From Arthrobacter sp. DNA4 (GTDB lineage: Bacteria; Actinomycetota; Actinomycetes; Actinomycetales; Micrococcaceae): a stretch of 64,000 bases of DNA. The position numbers were made by a program, and so were the translations under genes. Positions 37,697-40,787 of the stretch are shown here, in pieces; positions within the stretch are counted from its first letter, which is position 1, and every line of letters begins with the position of its first letter. The notes beneath the pieces were generated by a model. It ran no database searches. It was not told the DNA's origin and saw only the letters and a list, made by a program, of their open reading frames with translations. Location of the stretch: assembly GCF_024362385.1 (NCBI RefSeq), contig NZ_CP101466.1, positions 2,666,001 to 2,730,000 on the forward strand, read 5' to 3'.

Positions 37697-37764
37697 CTTC
37701 GAAGGCACCGCACCCTCGCAGGCACGCTGACCCCGCAGGCACGCAGAAGGCCGGTACCCCGAAA

Positions 37765-37790
37765 TGAACTGCTCCCCGAAAGTTGGACTG
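37765..37790 (+). repeat. Left inverted repeat of the IS3-family element
   Basis: Begins TG and matches the right repeat at 23 of 25 positions. The terminal TGAACTG and AAAGTTGGACT are typical of IS3/IS150-type ends. Bases 37769-37779 also pair with 37808-37818, which contain the orfA ribosome-binding site. Confidence 0.85.
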
Positions 37791-37822
37791 AGAAATCGGT
37801 CCTTCTATCGGGGAGCAGTTTT

Positions 37823-38311
37823 ATGCAGGAGAGTAGTTCGTTATCTGATGAACAGCGCGAGACCGCGGTAGCGTTGTTCGAGATGGGTTGGGGCGCGAAG
37901 GCAGCGGCGACGAGGTTAGGGGTACGTTCAAAGCCTGTCATCCGCATTCATGCCCTGTGGAGAGTTCGCGGAGGTACGGCGATAGTGACCAAATCAACCC
38001 ATCGGAAGTTCACGTTTGAGTTCAAACTGGATGCGGTCCGTCGGTTCCTGGCCGGGGAGAGCCAGGTCGTCCTGGCCAAGGAGCTCCAGCTCTCCTCGCC
38101 GGATTTGATCAAGAAGTGGGCGCGGAAATACCGCAACGAAGGCGAAGACGGCTTGCGCCCGAAACCACGCGGACGACCACTCTCATCTTTCAAGGCGCCG
38201 GCAGAGCCTGAGTCGGAGCTGCAGCGGCTGCGCCGCGAGAACGAGCGGTTGCGCGCAGAGGTGGCCTTCCTGGGAAAAGTAAACGCCTTGAGGGACGAGG
38301 AACAGCGCTAA
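37823..38311 (+). CDS. IS3-family transposase OrfA (helix-turn-helix)
   Basis: 163-residue DNA-binding part of the transposase. Residues ~10-45 form a first HTH (ALFEMGWGAKAAATRLGV), ~55-105 a second (HRKFTFEFKLDAVRRFLAGES), and ~130-150 a leucine-zipper-like helix (ELQRLRRENERLRAEVAFL). GGGGAG lies eight bases before the ATG. A slippery G GGA AAA (38272-38278) is followed by a 7-bp stem (38302-38308 with 38318-38324) holding the OrfA stop in its loop, so an OrfAB fusion by -1 frameshifting is expected. Confidence 0.9.
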   Translation: MQESSSLSDEQRETAVALFEMGWGAKAAATRLGVRSKPVIRIHALWRVRGGTAIVTKSTHRKFTFEFKLDAVRRFLAGESQVVLAKELQLSSPDLIKKWARKYRNEGEDGLRPKPRGRPLSSFKAPAEPESELQRLRRENERLRAEVAFLGKVNALRDEEQR

Positions 38312-38349
38312 AAGTCCGCGCTGTCATCGCTCTCAAGGCCCAACACCGG

Positions 38350-39162
38350 TTGGAAGTTCTGTTGGACGTTGCCGGGCTGCCCCGGTCCACGTTCTTCTAT
38401 CACCAAGCTCGGCTGCTGGTTCCTGATCCCCAAGCAGATCTCAAAGCAGCGGTCACGGGCATCTTCGAGAAGAGCCACGCCCGGTACGGGCACCGCCGTG
38501 TCCATATCGAACTGGTCAAACAAGGCTGGACGGTCGCGAAAAAGACCGTGCTGAAGCTGATGCGCTTGCTGCGGCTGGTCTGCAAGGTCCGGCGGAAGAA
38601 GCGCTACAACTCTTATCAGGGAGAGCAGGGCGTTGTTGCCCCGAACCTGTTGAAGCGCCAGTTCGAAGCGGATGCACCGAACGAAAAATGGGTTACCGAC
38701 GTGACCGAATTCAGCGTCGGCGACAGGAAACTGTACCTCTCACCGGTGATGGACCTCTTCGACCGGCAAATCATCTCCTACGCCATTGGAATCTCTCCCA
38801 ACCTGGAACTGACCAACTCCTCATTGCGCGGCGCCTTGGCCACCCTGGAGGACGGGCAGAAACCACTCGTGCACTCCGACCAGGGATTCCAGTACCAGCA
38901 CATCTCCTGGCGCCTACTCCTGCGGAATGCCGGCGCTGTCCAATCGATGTCACGCAAAGCCAACTGCTACGACAACGCCGTCATGGAAAACTTCTTCGGC
39001 CACCTCAAGGAAGAGTTCTTCCACCGCGTCCGGTTCCTCAACACTGATGCCTTGGCAGTAGCCCTTCACGAATACATCCGCTGGTACAACACTGAAAGGA
39101 TCTCCACGAAGCTCGAAGGTCTGAGTCCCGTGCAGTACCGTGCTCAGGCTGTCGCGAGTTGA
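38350..39162 (+). CDS. IS3-family transposase OrfB (DDE integrase)
   Basis: Catalytic part with the retroviral-integrase fold. DDE residues are in KWVTDVTEF, VHSDQGFQY and NAVMENFFGHLKEE. The frame is open upstream and joins orfA through a -1 shift at 38272-38278; after the shift the sequence reads on through ALKAQHRLEVLLDVAGLP into STFFYH. A TTG at 38350 is the first start-like codon, but the natural product is probably the fusion of ~446 residues. Full length, with no stops. Confidence 0.92.
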   Translation: MEVLLDVAGLPRSTFFYHQARLLVPDPQADLKAAVTGIFEKSHARYGHRRVHIELVKQGWTVAKKTVLKLMRLLRLVCKVRRKKRYNSYQGEQGVVAPNLLKRQFEADAPNEKWVTDVTEFSVGDRKLYLSPVMDLFDRQIISYAIGISPNLELTNSSLRGALATLEDGQKPLVHSDQGFQYQHISWRLLLRNAGAVQSMSRKANCYDNAVMENFFGHLKEEFFHRVRFLNTDALAVALHEYIRWYNTERISTKLEGLSPVQYRAQAVAS

Positions 39163-39255
39163 CCCGACAATAAGATTCTGTGACTTTTCCCGGACCGTGA
39201 TGTTCTGGCACGATTCGGGATGGAACCGCCGTGGGCTTGCCGGACACTAATAGGT

Positions 39256-39870
39256 ATGGGGGACTCAGGGAAGGTATCCACAGACGGAGAGCTTTGGCTG
39301 CGCGTCATGGATGGTGACGGTTCCGCGTTCGCTTCCCTCTTCCTGCGTCACCGGGACCGCGTCTTCGTTCACTGCCTCCGGTTGGTGAAAACTTCGTTTG
39401 AGGCTGAGGACGCCACCGCAATGGTGTTTTTGGAGGCTTGGCGCTGTAGATCCAAGATCAGGCTGGTCAATGATTCGATGCTGGGCTGGCTGCTGATCAC
39501 TGCCACCAATGTGGCAAGGAACAAGGTCAGGTCCACACTGCGATATGAGCGGCTGATTAGAAAGCTTCCGCAGCCCCAGGAGGTGCCGGATCACAGCGAC
39601 TGGGTGGTTGAGACGGTTGACGAAGACCGGCGGTCTCAGTGCTTGCAGCAGGCTTACCGTTCGCTGGGACGGCGTGACCAGGAAATTATTGCGCTGTGCG
39701 TTTTGGAAGATATGAGCACGGCAGAAGTGAGCGCACTGCTGGGCATTCCAACGGGCACAGTGAAATCCCGGCTCTCCCGTGCCAAACAGAGGCTTGCGCA
39801 GCTGATGAACCCCCAGGACCGGTTCCAACCGGAACCGGTCCCCCTCAGTCCCGAAGAGGAAATGCCATGA
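39256..39870 (+). CDS. ECF-type RNA polymerase sigma factor, passenger of the IS element
   Basis: 204-residue sigma-70 family regulator. Region 2 is FASLFLRHRDRVFVHCLRLV...ATAMVFLEAWR, and region 4 is RSLGRRDQEIIALCVLEDMSTAEVSALLGIPTGTVKSRLSRAKQRL, an HTH ending in the typical SRAKQRL. No extra C-terminal SnoaL domain. A GGAACC at 39222-39227 could be an ECF-type -35 suggesting autoregulation, but spacing to a -10 is not convincing. The stop overlaps the next gene (ATGA). It uses more A/T-ending codons than neighbouring chromosomal genes. Confidence 0.88.
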   Translation: MGDSGKVSTDGELWLRVMDGDGSAFASLFLRHRDRVFVHCLRLVKTSFEAEDATAMVFLEAWRCRSKIRLVNDSMLGWLLITATNVARNKVRSTLRYERLIRKLPQPQEVPDHSDWVVETVDEDRRSQCLQQAYRSLGRRDQEIIALCVLEDMSTAEVSALLGIPTGTVKSRLSRAKQRLAQLMNPQDRFQPEPVPLSPEEEMP

Positions 39871-40421
39871 ACAAGAAGCCTGGTTCACAGCACTTCAATC
39901 CTGAACGCAGTGCCGCCATCGAGGCGCTCCTGGTCAGCGTCGCCCAAGACGGGACCCCGGAAAACCAGCACTTCCAGAACACCAAAGGCAAAAAAATTCT
40001 GCTTGCCGGCGTCGCAGTCGCCCTCGTGGCAACCGGCGGAGCGGCGCTGACGCAACTGCCCGTTACGGACAAGAGCTCGATACTTTGTTTCGCCAGGGCC
40101 GAGCTGAACGGCCACCAGTTTCCTGGTACCACCGTCACATTGTTGGCAGGTGCAAGGCCCGGTGAGCCAAAACCCGACAACCCTGTTCCCATTGAGGACG
40201 CGCTGGCCGCCTGCAGGGACATCTGGGCACAACACGTTCTGGACCCCAATGCTCCGAGCGGTGGCGCGGATCCGAAACTGTTTGACAGCAACTTCTCTTA
40301 CCCGGTGCCCGATCCATTGACCGTATGCGTACTCGATGACGGACGTGCCGCAGTGATTCCCGGAGACGAAAAGGTCTGCGGCTCGCTAGGGCTCGCTTTG
40401 AAAACCGATACCGTCCGCTGA
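39867..40421 (+). CDS. Single-span membrane protein paired with the ECF sigma factor (possible anti-sigma)
   Basis: 184 residues: a ~42-residue cytosolic N-terminus, one membrane helix (~43-61, KILLAGVAVALVATGGAAL) and an exported domain of ~120 residues with four cysteines (74, 116, 154, 171), enough for two disulfides. This is the layout of anti-sigma factors, and translation is coupled to the sigma gene by ATGA overlap. The N-terminus lacks the HxxxCxxC zinc motif, so an anti-sigma role is inferred, not shown. No known domain recognised. Confidence 0.75.
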   Translation: MNKKPGSQHFNPERSAAIEALLVSVAQDGTPENQHFQNTKGKKILLAGVAVALVATGGAALTQLPVTDKSSILCFARAELNGHQFPGTTVTLLAGARPGEPKPDNPVPIEDALAACRDIWAQHVLDPNAPSGGADPKLFDSNFSYPVPDPLTVCVLDDGRAAVIPGDEKVCGSLGLALKTDTVR

Positions 40422-40613
40422 AAGTAGCAGCCGCCCTCAGTCGTTTCACACACCCTTCCCCAACGGGACTACGTGTTCCAGTGAACCCCAAGATCCGGCA
40501 GACAAAACTTCGACGATCTTCCGTCACCCTCGAAGGCCCACGATCCACGTGGCCGCGTCGTGATCGTCCCACCTACAACGCTTAGCTCCATGCTCCGACA
40601 AAGACGCTTACAA

Positions 40614-40649
40614 GAAAGCGCTCCGTCCGCAATGGGACGGAGCGCTTTC
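40614..40649. terminator. Terminator inside the IS element, after the passenger genes
   Basis: 15-bp stem GAAAGCGCTCCGTCC (40614-40628) with GGACGGAGCGCTTTC (40635-40649) and a 6-nt loop, followed by CTGAGAAG. It lies ~190 nt after the passenger gene and before the right inverted repeat. Confidence 0.75.
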
Positions 40650-40700
40650 CTGAGAAGTACCGGATCACTGGACGCTAAAGTGGACTCTTCGCACATTCAC

Positions 40701-40726
40701 GAGTCCAACTTTTGGGGACCAGTTCA
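40701..40726 (-). repeat. Right inverted repeat of the IS3-family element
   Basis: Reverse complement begins TGAACTGGTCCCCAAAAGTT and ends the element with CA. It is 1.5 kb beyond the transposase stop, which places the sigma-factor genes inside the element. Confidence 0.85.
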
Positions 40727-40787
40727 AAAATTGTCGGGGTGCCGGCCTTCTTTTGAGCTGTCAGGCTTTTGGCCCGGTTCCGCGCTG

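Follow-up and report, generated by a model that had tools for sequence, protein, structure and literature searches.

In a 64,000-nt window of the Arthrobacter sp. DNA4 genome (contig NZ_CP101466.1), a 2962-bp unit at positions 37765-40726 lies between tesB and ettA and carries, besides the two frames of a transposase, a gene for an extracytoplasmic function (ECF) sigma factor and a gene for a membrane protein (Table 1). The unit ends in imperfect inverted repeats of 25 nt that are 92% complementary, it is flanked on both sides by AAA, and even with as many as 5 mismatches allowed, no copies of the element end other than these two were found in the window. The orfA and orfB frames are one base apart, with orfB in the −1 frame, as for the IS3 family of insertion sequences (ISs). 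Imperfect terminal repeats together with a 3-bp duplication are likewise as in this family, and orfB scored 301.8 bits against the NCBIfam model transpos_IS3 (cut-off 160), with further matches to Pfam rve, rve_2 and HTH_21. We therefore describe an IS3-family element with ISArsp13-like ends, the likeness to ISArsp13 being judged by the ends, and with passenger genes inside those ends, as in a transporter IS (tIS). Comparison with relatives places it as one member of a passenger-carrying IS3 lineage that favours hairpin loops behind genes, and members of this lineage seem to exchange cargo.

Table 1 Features of the element and of its insertion site, in window coordinates
Feature	Position	Strand	Basis or remark
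Target-hairpin left arm, tesB/ettA spacer	37745..37762		Flank pairing; intact hairpins in relatives
Target duplication AAA, left copy	37762..37764		Flank comparison
Left inverted repeat (IRL)	37765..37789	+	Letter-for-letter the ISArsp13 IRL as given in PMC6305408 Table 3
Left-end hairpin, IRL pairing with an inverted copy just upstream of the orfA start	37766..37821	+	Fold of 37760-37840: −41.4 kcal/mol, z −7.9
orfA, transposase helix-turn-helix protein	37823..38311	+	Pfam HTH_28, HTH_Tnp_1; NCBIfam IS3 profile positions 1-84, under cut-off
orfB frame, DDE transposase	38212..39162	+	Open for 316 aa; start of the listed open reading frame (ORF) 38350; transpos_IS3, rve
ECF-type promoter GGAACC-N14-GGACACTA	39222..39249	+	6 nt upstream of the sigma start codon
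ECF sigma factor, 204 aa, cargo	39256..39870	+	Pfam Sigma70_r2 and r4_2 above cut-off; TIGR02937 above cut-off
Membrane protein, 184 aa, cargo, possible anti-sigma factor	39867..40421	+	One apparent transmembrane segment by eye; 4-nt overlap with sigma gene
Conserved right-end module: hairpin, spacer and right inverted repeat (IRR)	40609..40726	+	Common to relatives with different cargo
Right-end hairpin, terminator-like	40611..40652	+	Stem kept with compensatory changes in relatives
IRR	40702..40726	−	Inverted-repeat match to IRL
Target duplication AAA, right copy	40727..40729		Flank comparison
Target-hairpin right arm	40734..40751		Flank pairing; intact hairpins in relatives

A preliminary description of this DNA had placed the left repeat 58 bp upstream of orfA and the right repeat about 1.5 kb past orfB. 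Both distances are correct: the IRL starts 58 bp before the ATG at 37823, and the IRR begins 1.54 kb after the orfB stop at 39162. No plasmid record covers 80% of the element. The same genome also holds a broken relative at G000:C1:2099227-2102085, whose orfB is split by ~1.4 kb of other DNA, and a second one at 1734880-1734939 that matches the left end only (L002-L006; here and below, G numbers denote genomes and L numbers regions).

We compared the flanks of the insertion with the corresponding spacer in 24 relatives of the same genus for which the ettA region had been retrieved. Once the element is removed, the two flanking arms re-form an 18-bp hairpin. In 23 of the relatives tesB and ettA are separated by a short spacer with a hairpin and without the element; the nearest (L141) has a nearly identical hairpin whose arms enclose a short loop. 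The remaining spacer (G145, region L145) holds a different insert of ~1 kb. The empty sites that the preliminary description had proposed looking for thus exist, and the arrangement it had named as a refutation, a sigma pair at tesB/ettA without a transposase, was seen in 0 of the 24.

The hairpin at the insertion site reflects a general preference. We examined 61 copies of the element family, leaving out rows without an end, at a contig edge or with a doubtful end. After the flanks were joined, 46 of the 61 were at most 8 nt away from a palindrome centre (palindrome score of at least 8), compared to ~2% of 6100 control sites. The preference was observed for loaded copies, which carry passengers (30/36, against 2.1% of 3600 controls), and for plain copies (16/25, against 2.2% of 2500), with controls from the same loci. 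Where palindromes were strong, the centre fell within 6 nt of the insertion in 43 of 44 copies. For the 58 copies with usable flanking genes, 40 sites were at most 100 nt behind a long ORF and one was inside one; among 2900 controls the corresponding values were 5.6% and 59%. The target stems look like intrinsic terminators, and would presumably act as such. A narrow literature search found no report of ISs that choose terminators. The preliminary description had taken the restored hairpin as a sign that sigma factor and transposase arrived together. The hairpin itself stands, and its meaning changes: it is restored because these elements preferentially insert at the tip of hairpins that lie directly behind genes.

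We searched 206 same-genus genomes with the cargo plus right end, with the right end alone and with orfB. Matches to orfB at E ≤ 1e-100 occurred in 53 of the 206, and the terminal 118 bp of the unit were also present in places where the sigma pair is missing. From the right-end and orfB matches 80 regions were fetched, and the cargo counts given here are lower bounds. Two kinds of copy were distinguished. Plain copies have their right end 28-60 bp after orfB (mostly 42), and loaded copies have it 474-5325 bp after orfB, with conserved ends; the latter were found in at least 25 of the 206 genomes, that of the window included. Among 395 sampled genomes of the family, those of the same genus included, the right end was present in 16 (E ≤ 1e-6), one of them from another genus. 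In a tree of 53 orfB rows, which leaves out most identical copies, the 31 loaded rows need 3 label changes, compared to 17.2 in shuffles, and fall into clades of 25 (support 92/91) and 5 (100/99) plus one distant row. Copies ending right after orfB, which had also been named as a refutation, do occur, but in the tree they stand apart from the loaded clades.

Several genomes hold the same loaded element more than once. In G081 an element of 1885 bp and in G108 one of 2040 bp are each present at 2 sites, while G037 has a 2251-bp element at 2 sites and a 1891-bp element at 3. In all of these the copies are 100% identical, cargo included, and their target duplications differ. Near-identical loaded pairs were found in two more genomes (G065, 99.1%; G145, where one copy has a nested insert). 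Identical loaded copies at two or three sites with different duplications indicate that the cargo moves with the IS, and a duplication of at least 3 bp flanks 31 of 36 loaded copies. These copies, and relatives with other cargo in front of the shared right end, bear out the earlier placement of the sigma/membrane pair inside a transposable unit. In three places of G134 (L121, L122) a contig breaks off at a right end that shares 99% identity with that of the window, and the searches of the 206 genomes with cargo plus right end and with orfB listed no transposase or sigma match there.

The right end itself is a conserved module. The stretch holding its hairpin folds at −35.4 kcal/mol (z −7.7), and we found such a hairpin in 30 of 32 non-identical loaded elements (four others were dropped), mostly ~70 bp from the terminus. 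In the 30 with a stem of at least 10 bp, each of 16 stem positions shows two to four Watson-Crick pair types; the stems were aligned on the loop, so that register shifts may contribute to this tally. The hairpin had been described as the sigma pair's own terminator. Since it recurs with other cargo in loaded elements, it is part of the vehicle instead.

What the vehicle carries varies widely: the 32 non-identical loaded elements hold about two dozen cargo types by sequence. Besides the sigma pair of the window, another one is present in L068 and L095 (sigma factor 44% identical to the window's), MerR plus SulP permease in L049, L053, L064 and plasmid NZ_CP084557.1, and TetR with redox enzymes in L069 and L073. 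Further types are a chromate transporter (L116), GntR (L106), GNAT (L054) and DUF5956 (L057; L095 has a related one). Inspection by eye adds lipoproteins (L047, L061, L111) and many tiny membrane proteins. The element on NZ_CP084557.1 (L180:4001-7632), a plasmid typed as conjugative, has an ATG duplication and is annotated as separate genes only. In 13 comparisons, eight of them with both copies inside elements, cargo genes gave ratios of nonsynonymous to synonymous substitution (dN/dS) of 0.05-0.41. Separately, we noted more large cargos of TetR/short-chain dehydrogenase (SDR)/FAD type in L080, L123 and L124, with L080 and L124 combining pieces of the L069 and L073 cargos. Tiny membrane proteins in L062, L099 and L090 share by eye a T-D-x-Y-R-x-(Q/E)-W-L stretch, and those of L062 and L099 match in BLAST at 43%. 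An anti-phage function of the cargo was considered and rejected: PADLOC, run on 10 proteins, gave only two weak CARF-type matches, both to the sigma factor (E 0.003 and 0.008), and none for the other nine.

We next assessed whether transposase and cargo share one history. Nucleotide identity in orfB, cargo and right end, respectively, was 77%, 93% and 92% for L068/L095; 83%, 94% and 94% for L059/L105; and 80%, 87% and 95% for L061/L111; it was flat (85%, 85% and 82%) for L047/L111. Synonymous divergence (dS) of orfB exceeded that of the cargo in L068/L095 (1.24 versus 0.19), L059/L105 (0.71 versus 0.11), L047/L111 (0.73 versus 0.26) and L057/L095 (1.04 versus 0.42). With the cargo far less diverged than the transposase in 4 of 6 testable pairs, cargo and right end were probably swapped between elements as a block.

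Two elements appear to record how cargo is stacked. In L095, cargo of L057 type is followed by a truncated right end that lacks the IRR, by a trace of a second orfB, and then by sigma cargo of L068 type, whose right end is intact; the trace, identified by eye, consists of the last codons and the following leader, 17 nt of which are identical to the L058 leader. In L069, a truncated L050-type right end continues into a piece of a second orfB (residues 211-264, 61% identity, E 3e-17), and ~5 kb of cargo follow. We read both as tandem elements fused by deletion. In addition, a plain IS3 copy sits inside the right-end hairpin of a loaded copy at L063:877-4285.

These fusions, in which remnants of an old right end abut the 3′ portion of a second orfB, also suggest a history for the window element: two ISs may once have bracketed the sigma operon, with the second transposase later deleted. 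The window element showed neither a second IS copy nor an old right-end remnant, and we consider this origin conceivable though doubtful; it would be compatible with the transporter IS proposed here. A composite transposon as the present state was rejected, as there is one pair of ends with one orfA/orfB pair in between.

The sigma/membrane pair of the window is also found outside the elements. Copies with 70-81% DNA identity occur at ten chromosomal loci in 10 of the 206 genomes, with no related transposase within 1.5 kb, and at least four of them look broken (L014, L017, L018, L020). The homology begins just upstream of the promoter, GGAACC-N14-GGACACT(A/T), and stops at the membrane-gene stop codon. 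This promoter is kept before the sigma genes at all ten loci, and two other loaded elements have it with a spacing one base shorter. The outer domain of the membrane protein has four invariant Cys in 33 aligned sequences. The protein matched no Pfam family, no recognised anti-sigma domain and no solved fold at E ≤ 0.001, and residues 1-64 were not confidently modelled.

According to the preliminary description, a sigma factor travelling with an IS could rewire host transcription at each site. The sigma gene is open and under purifying selection, and a looser form of the promoter motif gave 33 hits in the window's genome against 8 in the reversed control, a 4-fold excess that may include weak host sites. 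The strict motif, however, has one hit in these 4.56 Mb, before the sigma gene itself. A set of eight genomes, chosen so that six were known carriers of the pair, gave 10 strict hits, and 8 of these precede a sigma gene of this group by 6 nt. The idea therefore found no support, and we regard a role in rewiring host genes as unlikely.

It is most improbable that an ordinary IS3 copy lost its right repeat beside a resident sigma operon and that an unrelated IRR-like sequence 1.5 kb off completes the bracket by chance: plain copies, mostly with the right end 40-60 bp after orfB, are common and sigma pairs are found elsewhere without a transposase, but the sigma pair is absent from tesB/ettA in the 24 relatives, identical loaded copies lie at several sites, and the AAA duplication, the empty site in relatives and the right end common to other loaded elements led us to reject this explanation.

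Taken together, the sequence comparisons favour a transporter IS of the IS3 family with ISArsp13-like ends (IS150 group) that would move the ECF sigma/membrane operon along with its transposase, a reading to which we assign a probability of about 86%. A number of observations weigh against it or against parts of it. The 2962-bp unit is present once in its own 4.56-Mb genome, so that co-transposition of its own cargo is inferred from relatives. Five of the 36 loaded copies have no duplication of at least 3 bp, and 15 of the 61 copies lack a palindrome scoring at least 8. Strong support in the orfB tree is confined to the clade of 5; of the 50 inner branches, 32 are poorly supported. L053 and L054, 2 of the 32, gave no good right-end hairpin in an ungapped search. 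The short cargos of L056, L071, L090 and L117 contain no convincing gene, and the lipoprotein dN/dS of 0.41 denotes moderate constraint only. As for exchange, two MerR plus SulP pairs have an orfB dS of 0.59-0.68 that is about equal to a cargo dS of 0.48-0.60, as expected without it, and ordinary homologous recombination could be the route where it took place. An anti-sigma role of the membrane protein is suggested by its operon position alone.

The sequence shows that a single unit was inserted into the loop of the tesB/ettA hairpin with a 3-bp duplication. Beyond this, the transporter IS reading implies the following course of events. OrfAB would use the IRL and the distant IRR, thereby copying all 2962 bp, and the choice of hairpin loops behind genes would keep insertions out of genes. 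The right-end hairpin of the element may stop transcription of the cargo, and cargo plus right end may pass between elements as a block. New cargo could be gained where two elements lie close together, by deletion of the first IRR and most of the second transposase. The pair itself would form a self-contained switch: the promoter carried by the element would let the sigma factor drive transcription of the operon that encodes it, and the membrane protein probably holds the sigma factor until a signal comes.

A possible source of cargo emerged from twelve stretches of 15-20 kb each around chromosomal sigma or membrane genes, which we compared with the IS cargos. Relatives of other cargos lie there, of L070 type (90% amino acid identity) in L127, of L058 type (77%) in L133 and of L047 type (69-77%) in L135, and none of these was found in 439 kb of DNA flanking IS copies. 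In L127:2481-15000 (G048:C1, ~4.207-4.220 Mb), imperfect palindromes of ~30 nt, TGTCCCGnTGAGGGTTCC...GGGACA, stand between small genes, mostly on one strand, and this run adjoins a chromosomal sigma-pair copy and the relative of the L070 cargo. Seven hits of the repeat motif in G048 form a same-strand run within 12.5 kb. Across five whole genomes, hits at 2 mismatches over those of the reversed control were 21/41, 36/40, 41/35, 23/34 and 27/33, not clearly above it; a repeat profile trained on the same 12 loci gave 61 hits when both strands were counted, and shuffled sequence gave 8 on a single strand. Among five PF00589 integrase hits in the G048 genome, none lies in 4.205-4.225 Mb. With the motif not clearly above control and no integrase nearby, an integron reading of the chromosomal sigma loci was rejected and kept as a lead only; the clusters as a source of cargo are likewise a lead, not a result.

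We tentatively offer a broader, rather speculative picture, in which this IS3 lineage would be an integrase-free system for trading cassettes, each unit made up of a gene, a terminator hairpin and the IRR. Homing to terminator loops, the right ends of other elements included, would create tandems, and deletions would fuse them. The chromosomal clusters of sigma pairs, lipoproteins and small genes between ~30-nt palindromic repeats might then be a reservoir or a graveyard, and the sigma cassettes might be switches under their own control, retained for the sake of their spread or of another benefit.

The IS3 family is very common among ISs and is generally regarded as transposase-only. A lineage of it that routinely carries genes, lands behind genes and seemingly swaps cargo would be a low-cost route for spreading small operons, on which the loaded relative on a plasmid typed as conjugative also bears. 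It may further serve as a model for the step from IS to transposon, in which an old right end decays, tandem copies fuse and blocks are exchanged. Our literature search, which excluded ISfinder and most subscription papers, found no publication on passengers in Arthrobacter IS3/IS150 elements.

Among known systems, integron gene cassettes also shuffle small genes in modular form, each with a structured end; the elements here are moved by a DDE transposase, and no integrase lies by the one array examined. Group IIC introns choose terminator stem-loops, but they are introns, whereas the elements here are transposons. The closest named relative is ISArsp13 of Arthrobacter plasmid pA2H2, listed in PMC6305408 as an IS3-family, IS150-group element of 1442 bp with 0 passengers. 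By Table 3 of that report the IRL is identical, the IRR differs by one base and the duplication is likewise 3 bp; the window element differs in its 2962 bp, its two passengers and its additional right-end module. The IS481-family ISArsp12 and the ISL3-family ISPst2a, each listed with 2 passengers (PMC6305408), resemble it as single ISs with non-transposition genes within their ends, for which the term tIS has been used (PMC9330008). It differs from these two, as they are listed, in its IS3-family membership, in clades whose sampled members are all loaded, in diverse cargo, signs of exchange and stacking, and in its targets, hairpin loops behind genes. IS1397, ISKpn1 and ISPsy8 are described as IS3-family elements that insert in repetitive extragenic palindromic (REP) or palindromic units (PMC1525189) and thus share both family and choice of palindromes; unlike their targets as reported, those of the present lineage are gene-end hairpins of varied sequence and not one repeat family.

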